This document shows positions 1 through 5,663 of a DNA stretch of 5,948 bases, in pieces. Within the stretch, counting starts at the first letter, position 1. Every line of letters starts with the position of its first letter. The stretch spans positions 1 to 5,948 of the forward strand of contig DOUV01001047.1 of the NCBI GenBank assembly GCA_003520455.1, given 5' to 3'. The translations under genes were made by a program, and so were the position numbers. The stretch is from Chloroflexota bacterium. Its GTDB lineage: Bacteria > Chloroflexota > Anaerolineae > Ardenticatenales > Ardenticatenaceae. Below the pieces are notes generated by a model. That model was not told where the DNA came from, did no database searches, and saw only the letters and a list, made by a program, of their open reading frames with translations.

Positions 1-1946
1 CCCGGCAGAACGCCCAGCGCCTCCAGGTGGGGAAACGAATCGGTCATGTGGGGCAGGTGGAGCGCGGCGACAAATTCTTCCTGGAAATGCGGGTCCACCG
101 CCGTCTCGACGTAATCGACTCGCCGGGCTGCTCTGGCGGCCTCGATGCGGCGCGCCTTGCTCAACAAGGCGATACGGGCACCATCCCCCGCGGCGTTGCC
201 GACGGCGTAGACGTGTTCCAGTTCGCAGTCGGGGTAGAGGCCCAGGATCATGGCGCGCAGGGGATCGATGTAGCTCCCGAAGGCACCGGCGAGCACGATC
301 TTATCGACCTTCGTGACCCCGCGGCGCCGCATCAGGAGCTTGCACCCGGCATACAAGGCCGCCTTCGCCAGCTGGATGTTGCGAACATCGTCCTGGGTAA
401 CGACGATTTCCTGTCCGGTCGCCGTCTGGTCGGCCGTGGCGAGCACGTACTCTCCCTTGGGACCGTTCCAGCGCAACCGCGGCGTGGTGGCCTCGGGCTC
501 CAGACGTCCATCCGGCCGCATGAGGCCAGATGTGTAGAGTTCGGCCACGGCTTCGATGATGCCGGAGCCGCAGATCCCGGTCGCTCCGATCTCCTCCGGC
601 GGCACCTCGTCCGACCAACGCTCACTGCCGATGACTCGGAAGCGTGGCTCCCCGGTGGCCAGGTCGATCCGGACACGCTCGATCGCCCCCGGCGCGGCCC
701 GTTGGCCGTGGGTGATCTGGGCACCCTCGAAGGCCGGGCCGGTGGGACTGCTGGCGCTCAGCAGGCGCTCGCGGTTGCCCAACAAAATCTCGGCGTTGGT
801 GCCCACGTCAATCACCAGCATCAGGTCGTCCTGCTGGTCGGGCGCCTCGGCGATCAGGACGCCCACGTTGTCGGCGCCAACGTGACCCGCTTCGAGGGCC
901 ATGAAGTGGACGTTGGCCCCCGGATGAAGCTTGAGCCCCAGCTCGCGGGCCTTGACGTCAACCGGGGCATGGGTTGCCAGGGTGAAGGGCGCCGCGCCCA
1001 GATCGGTCGGGTCCAGGCCGAGGAAAATGTGGTGCATGACGGTATTGCCCACCACGACCATCTCGTGGACGTCCCGCGCGCGCAACCCCGCCGCGTGCAT
1101 GGCCAGGCCGGTCAGCTTGTTGAGCCCCTTGATAATGGCCTCGTGCATCGTCCGCAGGCCATCGGCGTGCATCATCGCGTAGCTGACCCGGCTCATCAAG
1201 TCCTCACCATAGGTCACCTGGGGGTTCATCATCGCTTCGCTCGCCAGCACCTCGCCAGTGTGCAGGTTGCAGAGGTGAGCGGCCACGGTCGTCGAGCCGA
1301 GGTCCACTGCCAGGCCGTAGAGGCCCTCGTGGTAGCCCGGCTGCACGTCGATGACCTCAGCGTCGTTCCACACCACGACCGTCACACCTTGCTTCCCCTC
1401 TTTGAGCGCGGCACCGAGCCGGCGGAGGGCCTGCAGATCGATGCGCAACCCCTCAAAGCCCCATTCTCGGTGCAACGCCTCCTGAAGGCGCTCCCAGTCG
1501 CCTTTACGCTCACCGAGCCGGTGTGGCTCAACCTCGACAAAGACCTGGCGAAGGATCGGATCGAGCTCAATCGCACGCTCGGTCGCCGTCTTGCGGATGA
1601 TCTGCTTGCGTGCCTGGCTCTCGGGCGGCACTGTGACCAACACGTCGCCGGTGACGCAAGCTGCGCATGAGAGGCGCACCGTGCCGGGCTGAGGACCATT
1701 GCGGTGGGCAAAGTAGTCGCGCTCGTTGGCGCCGGCCGGGGTAACGTGGTCGGTGGCCGATTCGATCCCATGTTTCGGGAAGCTGCCGGCCTCGATGAGG
1801 ACCTTGCATTTACCGCACGTCTGGCGGCCACCGCAGATGCTATCAATGTCAACGCCGAGCTGGCGAGCCGCATCGAGCAGCGCGGTGCCTTCAGCAATCT
1901 GGGCCTGCCGACCCGATGGTTGGAATACCACGAGATGGGTTTTCAT
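1..1946 (-). CDS. Corrinoid-activating 2Fe-2S/ASKHA ATPase (RACo-like, DUF4445 family), 3' end cut by window
   Basis: The 648 visible codons have no stop. Residues 1-107 form a plant-type ferredoxin domain with C38, C44, C47 and C94 placed as 2Fe-2S ligands (CxxxxxCxxC, then a distal Cys in RLSCAAC; C97 is an extra Cys). A linker follows, then an ASKHA ATPase core: VDLGSTT (214-220), VVGNTVMHH (298-306), VIDVGTNAEI (378-387), GICGSG (457-462), VLAGAFGSYI (551-560) and VGNAAGDGA (582-590). Family knowledge: such proteins use ATP to drive one-electron reduction of inactive Co(II) corrinoid to Co(I). The corrinoid protein lies directly upstream, so it is the likely client. The residues reached at the left edge (FPHLEAL) resemble the C-terminus of this family, so little is missing. 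The start at 1946 (MKTHLVVFQPSG) fits family N-termini but lacks a well-spaced Shine-Dalgarno (GGAGG lies about 27 nt away). An in-frame ATG at 1985 overlaps the previous stop as ATGA and would add 13 residues. Confidence 0.9.
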   Translation of the reverse strand, partial: MKTHLVVFQPSGRQAQIAEGTALLDAARQLGVDIDSICGGRQTCGKCKVLIEAGSFPKHGIESATDHVTPAGANERDYFAHRNGPQPGTVRLSCAACVTGDVLVTVPPESQARKQIIRKTATERAIELDPILRQVFVEVEPHRLGERKGDWERLQEALHREWGFEGLRIDLQALRRLGAALKEGKQGVTVVVWNDAEVIDVQPGYHEGLYGLAVDLGSTTVAAHLCNLHTGEVLASEAMMNPQVTYGEDLMSRVSYAMMHADGLRTMHEAIIKGLNKLTGLAMHAAGLRARDVHEMVVVGNTVMHHIFLGLDPTDLGAAPFTLATHAPVDVKARELGLKLHPGANVHFMALEAGHVGADNVGVLIAEAPDQQDDLMLVIDVGTNAEILLGNRERLLSASSPTGPAFEGAQITHGQRAAPGAIERVRIDLATGEPRFRVIGSERWSDEVPPEEIGATGICGSGIIEAVAELYTSGLMRPDGRLEPEATTPRLRWNGPKGEYVLATADQTATGQEIVVTQDDVRNIQLAKAALYAGCKLLMRRRGVTKVDKIVLAGAFGSYIDPLRAMILGLYPDCELEHVYAVGNAAGDGARIALLSKARRIEAARAARRVDYVETAVDPHFQEEFVAALHLPHMTDSFPHLEALGVLP

Positions 1947-1981
1947 GGACGGGTTGAATTTTCCAACCTTTAACCTCCAAC

Positions 1982-2671
1982 TCATACCGGCTGCAGGACG
2001 CCCTGGCCGCGCCGGCTGGCCATGTAGGCCTTGGCGATGTCCACCGCCACCGCCGCGTCGCGCCCGTAGGCATCAGCGCCGACGGCCCTGGCAAACACCT
2101 CGGTCACCGGCGCTCCGCCGACCATGACGAAGATGCGGTCGCGGAGCCCCTCATCCTTCAGAGCCTGGACGACAACCCTCATGTAGGGCATGGTCGTGGT
2201 CAGAAGGGCACTCATCCCGATGATGTCGGCGTGGTGCTCCTTGACGGCGTTGAGGAAGGACTCGGCATCGTTGTTGATCCCGAGATTGATGACCTCGAAG
2301 CCGGCGCCCTCCATCATCATCGCCACCAGGTTCTTGCCGATATCGTGGATATCGCCTTTGACCGTGCCGATAACCATCGTCCCGACGCGTTCGGCCTCGG
2401 TCTCAGTGAGGAGCGGTCTCAGGACTTCCATGCCCCCCTTCATAGCATTGGCCGCCATCAGCACCTCGGGGACGAAGAGAATGCCGTCGCGGAAATCGAC
2501 GCCGACGATGTCCATCCCCGCCACCAGGCCTTGATCCAGAACCGCCTGGGGGGTGAACCCGCGACTCAGGGCCTCGTTGGTTGCCCCGACAACCTCATCC
2601 TTCAGGCCGTCGTAGAGATCGTCCTGCATCTGCAGAAACAGGTCTTCGCTCGACACATTCGAAAAATCCAT
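1982..2671 (-). CDS. Methyltransferase-cognate corrinoid (cobalamin-binding) protein, MtaC/MtbC/MttC-like
   Basis: 229 residues, the usual length for stand-alone corrinoid proteins. Residues 1-90 form the helical cap domain found before B12-binding domains (LFVPEVLMAANAMKGGMEVL at 65-84 is characteristic). Residues 91-225 are the Rossmann-like cobalamin domain: VKGDIHDIGKN at 104-114 contains the DxHxxG motif whose His109 is the expected lower axial cobalt ligand, SALLTTT (154-160) matches the SxL segment, and VGGAPVT (184-190) matches the GG segment lining the nucleotide tail. The protein would carry a methyl group between a substrate-specific methyltransferase and an acceptor transferase in the cytoplasm; the substrate cannot be told from the carrier. 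The ATG at 2671 is chosen over an in-frame ATG at 2710 because GAGGAG sits 9 nt upstream of it. The gene lies 70 nt after the dehydrogenase fusion and directly before the activator ATPase, a standard carrier-reactivator pairing. Confidence 0.93.
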   Translation of the reverse strand: MDFSNVSSEDLFLQMQDDLYDGLKDEVVGATNEALSRGFTPQAVLDQGLVAGMDIVGVDFRDGILFVPEVLMAANAMKGGMEVLRPLLTETEAERVGTMVIGTVKGDIHDIGKNLVAMMMEGAGFEVINLGINNDAESFLNAVKEHHADIIGMSALLTTTMPYMRVVVQALKDEGLRDRIFVMVGGAPVTEVFARAVGADAYGRDAAVAVDIAKAYMASRRGQGVLQPV

Positions 2672-2680
2672 GCTCGTATT

Positions 2681-2686
2681 CTCCTC
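2681..2686 (-). promoter_or_regulatory. Ribosome-binding site of the corrinoid protein
   Basis: GAGGAG on the minus strand, 9 nt before the ATG at 2671. It decides the start in favour of 2671 over the in-frame ATG at 2710, which would add 13 poorly family-like residues. Confidence 0.75.
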
Positions 2687-2702
2687 AAGGACGTGGGCGC
2701 GC

Positions 2703-2713
2703 TGCGTCACGCA
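2703..2713. repeat. 11-nt palindrome TGCGT-C-ACGCA in the intergenic spacer
   Basis: The 5-nt arms TGCGT/ACGCA flank a single base, about 32-42 nt upstream of the corrinoid ATG. It could be a regulator site or a tiny hairpin. Its length is close to what chance gives in GC-rich DNA, so only the pattern itself is asserted. Confidence 0.3.
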
Positions 2714-2741: not shown

Positions 2742-4496
2742 CTACTCATCCAACAAGACCACCGGTTCCTGATAGTAGCGGACCCGTCGGCGGGCCAATT
2801 TCTCTTGCACGAGATGATCGAGCCAGGCACTCTTCGCGCCTAGCGGCTCATCCGCACGCAGACGCTGCAACGGGGCATTCAGGCGCAACACCCGGCCGGG
2901 AATGACGAAGCGGGTGATCCCGGCGGGCATGACTCGACCCTCGGTCGCGATGCGCAACACGCTTTCGGGAGTGAACTGTGGGAAGACGACCAGAGCCACC
3001 ATCTCAGGATACTGGGCTCTCAGGACATCACGGTCGGTGACGAGCGTGCGCTCGACGCGTCCCCACCCGGTGTAGCAGTTCACCGTAGCGTTGAGCACAT
3101 CGAGCCAATCGCCTTCAGCATCAGGCGCGACCTCCAGCAAAAAGCCGCGGTTATCAGCGGTCAGCAAGTAGGCCAGCGCGTTGCGGGCCCGCATCGCCTC
3201 TTGAATGTGATCCACCGGCACCGCCGTCAGCTTCAGGCCCGGCACGTGTTGTAGAGTCTTGAGCAAGCTGGAGACCTCACCGCCGGAGATGGCATGATAC
3301 CAGGTGTGAAGCTGCACGCCCTCATCTTCCTCGGGCGAGACGACCTGGACGATGGTGTGCGGAAAGTTGAGTTGCTTGAGGGCTGTCGTCCGCGTAGCGC
3401 CATCGAGCACGACATAGTGATCGCCCCATTCGGCCACCACCGGCGGATTGACCAGGCGACCCTCTTCTTCGAGGCGCGCGGCCAGATCGGCAACCCGTCG
3501 GGGGTCGAAGGCCTCGTGCGGGACCACCTTCTCCAGTGGCACGATCTTCAGCGCGAGCGTCTCCGAGGCGCGTTGGCGCCGCAGTACGGCCAGGACTTGC
3601 TCGACCACCGAGAGGGCAGCGGCCCGCTGGGCATCCTCGGTGCTGGCGCCGATGTGCGGCGTGGCAACCACCTTAGGGTGGCCGGCGAGGGCACTGTCCA
3701 CGTTCGGCTCATGCTCGAAAACGTCGAGCCCGGCACCGGCCAGCCGGCCCTCTTCGAGCGCCGTCAGCAGCGCCGGCTCGTCCACCACGCCACCACGGGC
3801 GGTGTTGATCAGGTAGGCCGTCGGCTTCATCAGAGCCAACTCGTTGGCGCCGATCAATCCCTCGGTCTCCGGGCGCATCGGGACGTGGAGCGTGACAAAG
3901 TCAGACTCGCGCAACAGATCGGGGAGGTCGCGCTGCTCGACACCCCACTCCAGCGCCAGCTCCGGCGTCAGGCGCGGTTGGTTCACGATCACCCGCATGC
4001 CGAAGGCCTGCGCGCGTTTCGCCACCTGTCGACCAATGCGGCCGAAGCCAATGATACCGAGCGTCCTCCCCGACAGGTCACTGCCCATCGACTGGGATTT
4101 CTCCCAGCGGCCCGCCTTCATGCTCTGGTCGGCCGCAATCAGCCGGCGCGCCAGGGCCAGCATCAGCGCCAGGGTGTGCTCGGCGACGGCGATGGTATTG
4201 GCATCCGGCGAATTGACGACTTCAACCCCTTGAACACGAGCCGCCGAGACATCAATGTTATCGAGGCCAGCGCCCGCCCGCGCGATCACGCGCAGGCGGT
4301 GACCGTAGTTGATCACCGACGCGGGCACTTTGGTGGTGCCCCGCACGATGAGCGCATCGTAGTTGCCGATGATTTGCTCGAGCTCACTGCGGGAGAGGCC
4401 CGGCCGGATATCGACGGTGGCGTGCTGGCGCAGCAACGCGACGCCATCTTCATGGACCGGATCGGCGATCAGGACATTCAGAGAGCCGGGATTCAT
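2742..4496 (-). CDS. serA: D-3-phosphoglycerate dehydrogenase fused to a ParB/SbnI/SerK-like C-terminal domain
   Basis: 584 residues. Residues 1-310 are a D-2-hydroxyacid dehydrogenase closest to the phosphoglycerate dehydrogenase type: substrate loop RGTTKV (52-57) and RAGAGLDNID (73-82), NAD-binding GFGRIG (150-155), and catalytic R234 (NTARGG), E263 (DVFEHEP) and H281 (TPHIGAST). The usual SerA tail (ASB plus ACT serine-sensing domain) is missing. From about residue 315 a different module starts: a ParB/sulfiredoxin-like N-terminal segment with VPHE (325-328), two helices, then VVLDGATRTTALK (362-374), followed by about 200 further residues (W399, YTGWGR at 475-480) that I cannot assign beyond resemblance in layout to the roughly 250-residue free-serine kinases SbnI and archaeal SerK. 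Expected role: NAD(P)-dependent oxidation of 3-phosphoglycerate, or reduction of hydroxypyruvate, with the second module possibly acting on serine/phosphoserine. The ATG overlaps the stop of the upstream aminotransferase (ATGA) and has GGAGG 4 nt before it. The symbol applies to the N-terminal half only. Confidence 0.88.
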   Translation of the reverse strand: MNPGSLNVLIADPVHEDGVALLRQHATVDIRPGLSRSELEQIIGNYDALIVRGTTKVPASVINYGHRLRVIARAGAGLDNIDVSAARVQGVEVVNSPDANTIAVAEHTLALMLALARRLIAADQSMKAGRWEKSQSMGSDLSGRTLGIIGFGRIGRQVAKRAQAFGMRVIVNQPRLTPELALEWGVEQRDLPDLLRESDFVTLHVPMRPETEGLIGANELALMKPTAYLINTARGGVVDEPALLTALEEGRLAGAGLDVFEHEPNVDSALAGHPKVVATPHIGASTEDAQRAAALSVVEQVLAVLRRQRASETLALKIVPLEKVVPHEAFDPRRVADLAARLEEEGRLVNPPVVAEWGDHYVVLDGATRTTALKQLNFPHTIVQVVSPEEDEGVQLHTWYHAISGGEVSSLLKTLQHVPGLKLTAVPVDHIQEAMRARNALAYLLTADNRGFLLEVAPDAEGDWLDVLNATVNCYTGWGRVERTLVTDRDVLRAQYPEMVALVVFPQFTPESVLRIATEGRVMPAGITRFVIPGRVLRLNAPLQRLRADEPLGAKSAWLDHLVQEKLARRRVRYYQEPVVLLDE

Positions 4497-5611
4497 CGTA
4501 CCTCCGAGCTTCCGATGTACGTCTCAACAGCCATGAAGAGGCGATCCAAATCGGGATCGGTCACCTCGCCCATGTGCGCGATGCGGAAGGATCTGTCCTT
4601 GAGGGGGCCGTAACCGTTGGAGATCTCCATCTCCAGGGTCGCAAGATAGCGGTTCAGTGCCCCGACGTCGATGCCACGCGTGTTGGCAACGGTCGTCACC
4701 GTCGGCGAGCGATAGCCCTCCTCCGCCATCAGGCCAAAACCAGTCGCCAGCGCCCAGCGCCGGGTCTTCTCGGCCAACGCCGCGTGACGGGCAAAGCGAG
4801 CCTCAAGCCCCTCATCGAAGATGAAATCGAGCTCGAGGCTGAGGGCCCGCATCAGCGAGATCGCCGGCGTGGCGGGGGTGGTATTTCTTTTGAGGTACTT
4901 CTCGAGGGTCAGAAAGTCAAAATACCAGCCGCGATCCGGGATGGACGCAGCGCGCTCGAGCACGCGGTCAGCGACCGCGGCGAAGGCCAGACCCGGCGGC
5001 ACTGCCAGGGCCTTTTGCGAGGAGGTCAGGCAAACATCCAGACCCCACTCGTCGGTGGGTATTTTGACCCCACCGAGGGACGAGACAGCATCCACGAGCA
5101 CGAACGTGTCCGGGCTGAGCTCCCGCACAGTGGCCGCGATCGCACCGACCGGGCTGGTGACGCCGGTACTGGTCTCGTTGTGGACGACGGTGATCGCATC
5201 CACGGGGCCGTCGCGTAATGCCGCCGTCAGCGCCTCACCGACCTGTTCGGGCTTGACGGCGGTAGTCCACTCGACGTCCACACGGATCGTCTCCTTGCCA
5301 CAGCCCCGAGCAACATCGTACCACCGCTGGCTGAAAGCGCCGTTGACGAAACTGATCACGCGGCGGCGGACGGCGTTACGAACCGCCCCCTCCTGCAGAC
5401 CTGAGCCGGAAGAAGCCAGAATATAGACCCGATTCCGGGTAAAGAAAAGCTGTTTGAGTTGTTCTTCGACCTTTGCGAATAGCGTTTCGAACTCGTCGCT
5501 GCGGTGGCCGATCATGGGCGCAGCCTGTGCGGCAAGGACCTCAGGCAGCACGTCCGTGGGACCGGGAATGAAGAGCCGTTGATGCGGCTTCGTTGTTGGT
5601 CGCGTGGTCAT
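4493..5611 (-). CDS. Class V PLP aminotransferase (alanine/serine-glyoxylate or phosphoserine aminotransferase type)
   Basis: 372 residues from the chosen ATG, the normal length for fold-type I class V enzymes of this group. Seen in order: RLFIPGPTDV near the N-terminus (12-21), GHRSDEF (35-41), the cofactor phosphate region ASSGSGLQEGAVRNA (66-80), HNETSTG (144-150), VDAVSSLGG (173-181) with Asp174 contacting the pyridine nitrogen, the Schiff-base lysine K200 in SSQKAL, and R343 in FRIAHMG, the usual carboxylate-binding Arg. It would transfer amino groups among alanine, serine, glyoxylate and hydroxypyruvate, or, given the overlapping phosphoglycerate dehydrogenase gene, convert phosphohydroxypyruvate to phosphoserine, a role class V members play in lineages without classical SerC. 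Substrate is not decidable from motifs. Start: ATG at 5611 has AGGGAGA 9 nt upstream; an in-frame GTG at 5650 and ATG at 5632 lack good sites. It is the first gene of the leftward operon. Confidence 0.92.
   Translation of the reverse strand: MTTRPTTKPHQRLFIPGPTDVLPEVLAAQAAPMIGHRSDEFETLFAKVEEQLKQLFFTRNRVYILASSGSGLQEGAVRNAVRRRVISFVNGAFSQRWYDVARGCGKETIRVDVEWTTAVKPEQVGEALTAALRDGPVDAITVVHNETSTGVTSPVGAIAATVRELSPDTFVLVDAVSSLGGVKIPTDEWGLDVCLTSSQKALAVPPGLAFAAVADRVLERAASIPDRGWYFDFLTLEKYLKRNTTPATPAISLMRALSLELDFIFDEGLEARFARHAALAEKTRRWALATGFGLMAEEGYRSPTVTTVANTRGIDVGALNRYLATLEMEISNGYGPLKDRSFRIAHMGEVTDPDLDRLFMAVETYIGSSEVR
4501..4505 (-). promoter_or_regulatory. Ribosome-binding site of the dehydrogenase fusion
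   Basis: GGAGG lies within the last codons of the aminotransferase gene, 4 nt before the overlapping ATG at 4496. The site and the ATGA overlap point to translational coupling and balanced production of the two enzymes. Confidence 0.65.
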
Positions 5612-5620
5612 ATGAATGGT

Positions 5621-5627
5621 TCTCCCT
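5621..5627 (-). promoter_or_regulatory. Ribosome-binding site of the aminotransferase
   Basis: AGGGAGA on the minus strand, 9 nt before the ATG at 5611. It favours this start over the in-frame GTG at 5650 and ATG at 5632. Confidence 0.65.
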
Positions 5628-5646
5628 GCCATGGCCAATGATTCGG

Positions 5647-5663
5647 GCACGTTTCTCGCACGT
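5647..5663. repeat. Direct repeat GCACGT-N5-GCACGT upstream of the operon
   Basis: Two identical hexamers repeat with an 11-nt period, about one helical turn, 36-52 nt upstream of the aminotransferase ATG. Such spacing is used by some tandem-binding regulators, but the units are short and may be chance. Confidence 0.3.

Follow-up and report, generated by a model that had tools for sequence, protein, structure and literature searches.

A phosphoglycerate dehydrogenase fused to a SerK/SbnI-like domain in Chloroflexota, a candidate phosphoserine hub

The stretch of DNA analysed here (the window: 5,948 nucleotides, contig DOUV01001047.1 of assembly GCA_003520455.1, from a Chloroflexota bacterium of the family Ardenticatenaceae) encodes a protein in which a phosphoglycerate dehydrogenase (PGDH) is fused to a domain resembling the serine kinases SbnI and SerK. 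On balance, we hold it to be probable that this fusion is a two-enzyme hub for phosphoserine (Sep), working with the aminotransferase encoded directly in front of it and with a net direction likely from serine. The reading draws on the fusion, its predicted fold, conserved catalytic residues, gene order and genome counts. According to the proposed mechanism, the C-terminal SbnI/SerK-type domain would convert free L-serine to Sep with a nucleotide donor (SerK of Thermococcus kodakarensis uses ADP). The class V aminotransferase encoded next to it would interconvert Sep and 3-phosphohydroxypyruvate, which the dehydrogenase of the N-terminal half would in turn interconvert with 3-phosphoglycerate. 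The likely net flow would lead from serine via Sep to 3-phosphoglycerate, i.e., to assimilation of serine and glycine; where serine acetyltransferase is absent, Sep may also be turned into cysteine by a CysM-type synthase. Kinase activity, substrate, donor and direction are predicted here, as would be any channelling between the two halves.

As the preliminary description had stated, a single uninterrupted frame joins both parts; it starts with ATG. The dehydrogenase half matches PF02826 (6.9e-66), PF00389 (7.7e-32) and TIGR01327 (5.1e-116, residues 7-319). The latter model represents long PGDHs with a C-terminal regulatory part, and the match of 388.5 bits covers positions 1-315 only, below the cut-off of 454 bits over 525 positions. 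Both the Arg-Glu-His triad, with H281 as the catalytic His, and the GFGRIG nucleotide motif are present. The nearest PDB chain, 1wwk from Pyrococcus horikoshii (1.5e-77), has 307 aa and bears the name phosphoglycerate dehydrogenase. No ACT domain was matched in the fusion by the domain profile search and the SbnI/SerK-like half is found instead, in agreement with the initial proposal.

The C-terminal half matches the SbnI model NF033589 over nearly its whole length (1.3e-23, residues 315-583) and the archaeal SerK model NF053625 over residues 318-546 (2.7e-11). The generic ParB_N model PF02195 stays below its cut-off (E 0.11, 12.9 vs. 26.3 bits). The predicted model of this half has the whole-domain fold of SbnI and SerK. 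Thus, by profile matches and structure prediction, the C-terminal half has the SbnI/SerK fold; canonical ParB identity is ruled out by the PF02195 score and the comparison of predicted folds. The motifs IVPLEKVVPHE and LDGATRTTALK were confirmed at the positions claimed for them earlier. Among known systems, SbnI of Staphylococcus (NF033589; PDB 6nr6, 5ujd, 5uje; 1e-16 by sequence) shares the full-length fold, the positions of the catalytic residues, and a TRF and following GR-L motif near the C-terminus, and is nearer to this half than archaeal SerK. The catalytic Glu (E20/E30) and Asp (D58/D69) of SbnI/SerK are present as E328 and D365. SbnI itself is a standalone protein of a siderophore operon, and free-serine kinases are known from a few archaea and staphylococci.

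The fusion is widespread among relatives. When relatives were sought with the C-terminal half, the 7994 candidates with most words in common were scored and 763 kept, including the window; the best 120 of these comprise, by length, 82 two-domain, 32 three-domain and 6 short proteins, and all named taxa among the matches listed are Chloroflexota, including Kouleothrix, Caldilinea, Anaerolineae and Ardenticatenaceae. Conservation in this collection is biased, as it was gathered with the SerK half; the best 120 matches obtained with the PGDH half served as a control. All of the latter (window included) align over the SerK-like half, three being cut short at its end. Since relatives were recovered by both searches, the fusion is neither due to chance nor to an assembly error, and an assembly artefact is ruled out by the many relatives with the same architecture. 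A contig search with the window's fusion protein returned mostly plain PGDHs. Of 298 genomes from the class to which G002 belongs, 135 have a SerK-like match at E 0.001, 11 of them with 20-27 bits only; the other 124 have a full-size match, either fused (34 genomes; open frame of 561 aa or more) or standalone (90), leaving 174 SerK-less genomes. With the SbnI model, which is less sensitive, matches were obtained in 22 of 301 genomes drawn across the phylum and in 8 of the 15 genomes from which the relative loci came. Thermus composti, a control genome, also matches this model below its cut-off; hence, the SerK-like family may extend past Chloroflexota. In one source, several standalone relatives bear the label L-serine kinase (ATP) / ParB family regulator, but we know of no test behind this label. 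Our literature searches brought up no account of a PGDH-SerK fusion. Fusions of the same core fold to lineage-specific domains are covered by a survey of the ParB-CTPase fold, the main text of which contains neither the word dehydrogenase nor Chloroflex (PMC12704722).

The two halves differ in conservation. The active-site Glu, Asp and Arg (E328, D365, R369) are kept in all 120 SerK-side and all 120 PGDH-side matches, together 210 proteins, and the motifs of the SerK-like half are present in 120/120 SerK-side matches. The PGDH triad is intact in 119/120 of the best PGDH-half matches; in the best 120 of 763 SerK-side matches, it is intact in 43/82 two-domain and 0/32 three-domain proteins. In class genomes with an alignable fusion, 17/26 have an intact triad, including all six with an aminotransferase in front, and the three SerK-side residues are retained in these 26 as well. 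For pairs sampled at 45-75% identity in the SerK half only, mean identity of the PGDH vs. the SerK half is 66% vs. 53% with intact triads, 52% vs. 59% for two-domain pairs without R234, and 57% vs. 70% for three-domain pairs. Judged from these sequence comparisons, the dehydrogenase half decays across relatives and the kinase-like half does not. Triad counts and pairwise identities further indicate that both halves resemble working enzymes in the lineage of the window and that the SerK half is the one retained. In a tree of 88 domains, computed with a quick method and supported by SH-aLRT values only, the dehydrogenase fusions fall into one clade (70 rows, SH-aLRT 96) including six standalone rows, among them L159, which is truncated at the end of its contig; branches are long for some of the standalone rows. 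The three-domain proteins (P0045, P0058, P0092 and 29 other listed matches >800 aa; loci L144, L148, L152, L155, L156, L160) consist of an N-terminal pyridoxal phosphate enzyme, a PGDH domain without catalytic triad and a SerK-like domain. In the three scanned, the added domain is closest to threo-3-hydroxyaspartate ammonia-lyase and serine/threonine dehydratases. The decayed dehydrogenase may have been retained in these proteins for linking the other domains or for binding NAD.

A counterpart of the window's aminotransferase gene directly precedes the fusion in six of 27 genomes examined (G001, G002, G095, G367, G392, G410; the 27 comprise G005 and 26 genomes from the class set). Six is a minimum, as G151 and several three-domain loci have little or no upstream sequence. 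In G498, an aminotransferase precedes a standalone SerK-like gene (L147); in G500 (L192), GcvP is followed by an aminotransferase, a free PGDH (triad intact), a fusion (triad broken) and asparaginase. Most of these genes belong to serine, glycine and one-carbon metabolism. The window's aminotransferase has 2dr1 as its nearest PDB chain (named hypothetical serine aminotransferase, 7.8e-69; from Pyrococcus) and lies below the cut-off of the SerC model TIGR01366 (77.0 vs. 401.65 bits); with Sep as its predicted substrate, it is likely the phosphoserine aminotransferase partner of the fusion. The nearest solved structures by sequence, the short PGDH 1wwk and the AGAT-type aminotransferase 2dr1, are separate proteins, unlike the fused PGDH half. 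We read the fusion as a Sep hub running from serine because of these Pyrococcus-like enzymes and because of archaeal precedents. T. kodakarensis uses SerK for cysteine synthesis from serine and, together with an aminotransferase and SerA, also for converting serine to 3-phosphoglycerate, as argued from small changes in growth yield; in Desulfurococcales, the genes are neighbours (PMC5120207, in part). The same part of this paper reports that clear-cut bacterial SerK homologues were not found and mentions no fusion of archaeal SerK.

The cysteine branch of the hub was assessed by gene counts in the 298 genomes. CysE was found at E 1e-60 or better in 4/34 fused, 32/90 standalone and 89/174 SerK-less genomes (Fisher fused vs. 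SerK-less 1.8e-5, kinship ignored) and at E 1e-15 in 9/34, 38/90 and 106/174 (2.8e-4); neither threshold yields a match in the six genomes that combine aminotransferase and fusion. Of the 30 fusion genomes without CysE at 1e-60, five have weaker matches. A cysKM-type protein (1e-50) is present in 32/34 fusion genomes. Among eight scanned, that of G488 is a CysK over cut-off with CysE adjacent on the contig; for the other seven, the best model is cysM, below its cut-off. Six of these seven belong to genomes that lack CysE matches altogether; the genome of the seventh, G420, has a weak one. Some CysM enzymes accept phosphoserine. These counts also fit an alternative in which both halves converge on Sep, without return to 3-phosphoglycerate, to supply one product such as cysteine or diaminopropionate, much as Sep made by SbnI serves a siderophore precursor. 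However, neither the window nor the annotated neighbourhoods contain a cysteine or siderophore gene next to the fusion, and the three three-domain relatives scanned carry a dehydratase-type enzyme, not a sulfhydrylase. We regard such a dedicated supply as unlikely.

Several points weigh against the Sep hub. The C-terminal half scores far below the equivalog cut-offs of SbnI (83.7 vs. 350 bits) and SerK (43.1 vs. 380 bits). In addition, the His before the phosphate-loop Arg (DGVHR in SbnI; DGHHR in archaeal ADP-dependent SerK: TK0378, PDB 5x0b-5x0k, P. furiosus 1vk1) is replaced by Thr in the fusion (DGATR), so that its phosphate site differs from both, although treating this His as a mark of the family is our assumption. 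DGATR or DGASR occurs in all 210 proteins checked, window included, and to our knowledge no activity is known for any family member with such a motif. Genomes with an aminotransferase beside the fusion are a minority. The completeness of the 298 genomes is not stated, the CysE contrast weakens at E 1e-15 (9/34 vs. 106/174), and the CysE counts, like the SerB counts below, ignore kinship; since the fusion forms one clade, these associations may reflect a single event. Finally, T. kodakarensis SerA was shown to work in the biosynthetic direction too, and the authors did not exclude other causes of the small yield effects (PMC5120207, in part). In a 2025 survey, a SerK-like protein bound CTP, not ATP (PMC12704722, in part), so that more than one nucleotide is a candidate donor for the SerK-like half.

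The preliminary description had also considered a serine sensor replacing ACT. In this reading, the SerK-like half would be a non-catalytic module that binds serine or Sep and regulates the dehydrogenase. The position of the SerK-like half, which is that of ACT in long PGDHs, and the altered DGATR motif would fit this idea, and the same fold acts as a switch or scaffold elsewhere (PMC12704722, in part). Nevertheless, the catalytic residues of the SerK side are kept in every protein checked, while 39/82 two-domain and 32/32 three-domain proteins among the best 120 SerK-side matches do not have an intact PGDH triad. A regulator would hardly outlive the enzyme under its control. Moreover, standalone homologues occur without a PGDH match in the surrounding 8-11.5 kb, and 30/33 fusion genomes checked (G445, the 34th, being outside the check) encode a further, separate SerA that scores above the cut-off for full-length PGDH. 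The sensor is, therefore, improbable. The separate SerA also rules out the fusion as sole cellular PGDH in these 30 genomes; of the remaining three, G410 has its other SerA in three frame-split pieces, G003 a C-terminal piece only and G008 shorter PGDHs only.

Table 1. Features of the window.
Feature	Position	Strand	Remarks
Class V (AGAT-type) aminotransferase	4493..5650	-	stop overlaps fusion start by 4 bases; profile matches
PGDH-SerK-like fusion	4496-2742	-	ATG start, 584 codons, no internal stop
PGDH half of fusion, residues 1-308	3573..4496	-	triad R234, E263, H281; GFGRIG; VRGTTK loop
SerK/SbnI-like half of fusion, residues 313-584	2742..3560	-	P326-H327-E328, D365-G-A-T-R369, W399, T528-R529
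Corrinoid protein (B12-binding, MtgC/MtbC-like)	1982..2710	-	31 bases after fusion
RACo/AcsV-like corrinoid reactivase	3..1985	-	start overlaps corrinoid gene by 4 bases; runs beyond window end

In the window, four genes are tightly packed on the minus strand (Table 1). The corrinoid protein and the reactivase directly downstream of the fusion suggest that the operon also encodes a system for methyl transfer; none of the window's genes was recognised as a methyltransferase. Among the loci searched, the corrinoid neighbour recurs in L001 only. In G421, a RACo-like gene, 54% identical to that of the window, lies near a separate long SerA (L178:570-2564 and 3351-4265), which is a second link between serine genes and corrinoid chemistry. 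An extended version of the hub would be a reversed phosphorylated serine pathway acting as a carbon-assimilation shunt, in which methyl groups from a corrinoid methyltransferase system and glycine would form serine, to be phosphorylated, transaminated and reduced to 3-phosphoglycerate, with Sep passed between the fused partners. This we consider quite doubtful.

The least probable explanation is energy-conserving serine biosynthesis, in which PGDH and aminotransferase would make Sep from 3-phosphoglycerate and the reversed SerK half (Sep + AMP/ADP to serine + ADP/ATP) would replace SerB. All three steps are together in the window and six genomes, and a SerB-like HAD (TIGR00338 at 60 bits or more, an arbitrary threshold; non-HAD phosphatases were outside the search) occurs in 0/6 genomes with aminotransferase plus fusion, as the substitute for phosphoserine phosphatase suggested earlier would have it. 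Across the class, however, the counts run the opposite way and speak against such a replacement: SerB-like HADs are found in 23/34 fused (15/26 two-domain, 8/8 three-domain) and 47/90 standalone vs. 42/174 SerK-less genomes, of which 132 lack one without any SerK-like domain. Canonical SerB over cut-off is rare anyway (4/298 genomes, two of them with the fusion). Furthermore, the ester bond of phosphoserine is low in energy, so that forming ADP or ATP at its expense would be uphill, by ~20 kJ/mol from standard values, and the PGDH step is unfavourable as well.

Other neighbours are diverse. In three genomes (L132, L185, L186), the fusion is followed on its own strand, after ~1 kb, by a gene for aldehyde ferredoxin oxidoreductase, and an integron integrase gene adjoins a standalone SerK-like gene at L136:5880-6968. 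Ten annotated neighbours of standalone SerK-like genes at five loci (RluA, a TolB-like protein, two M23 peptidases, RecA, a DltB-like protein, ProS, IOR alpha, the integron integrase and one protein without match at 1e-10) indicate no common pathway.

In summary, the SerK-like domain is common within a single bacterial class, with full-size matches in 124 of 298 genomes, and its fusion to a serine-pathway enzyme in 34 genomes ties its role to phosphoserine. The fusion is a candidate bacterial route between serine and 3-phosphoglycerate, and in these genomes, a protein annotated as ParB or PGDH-like may be neither of the two.
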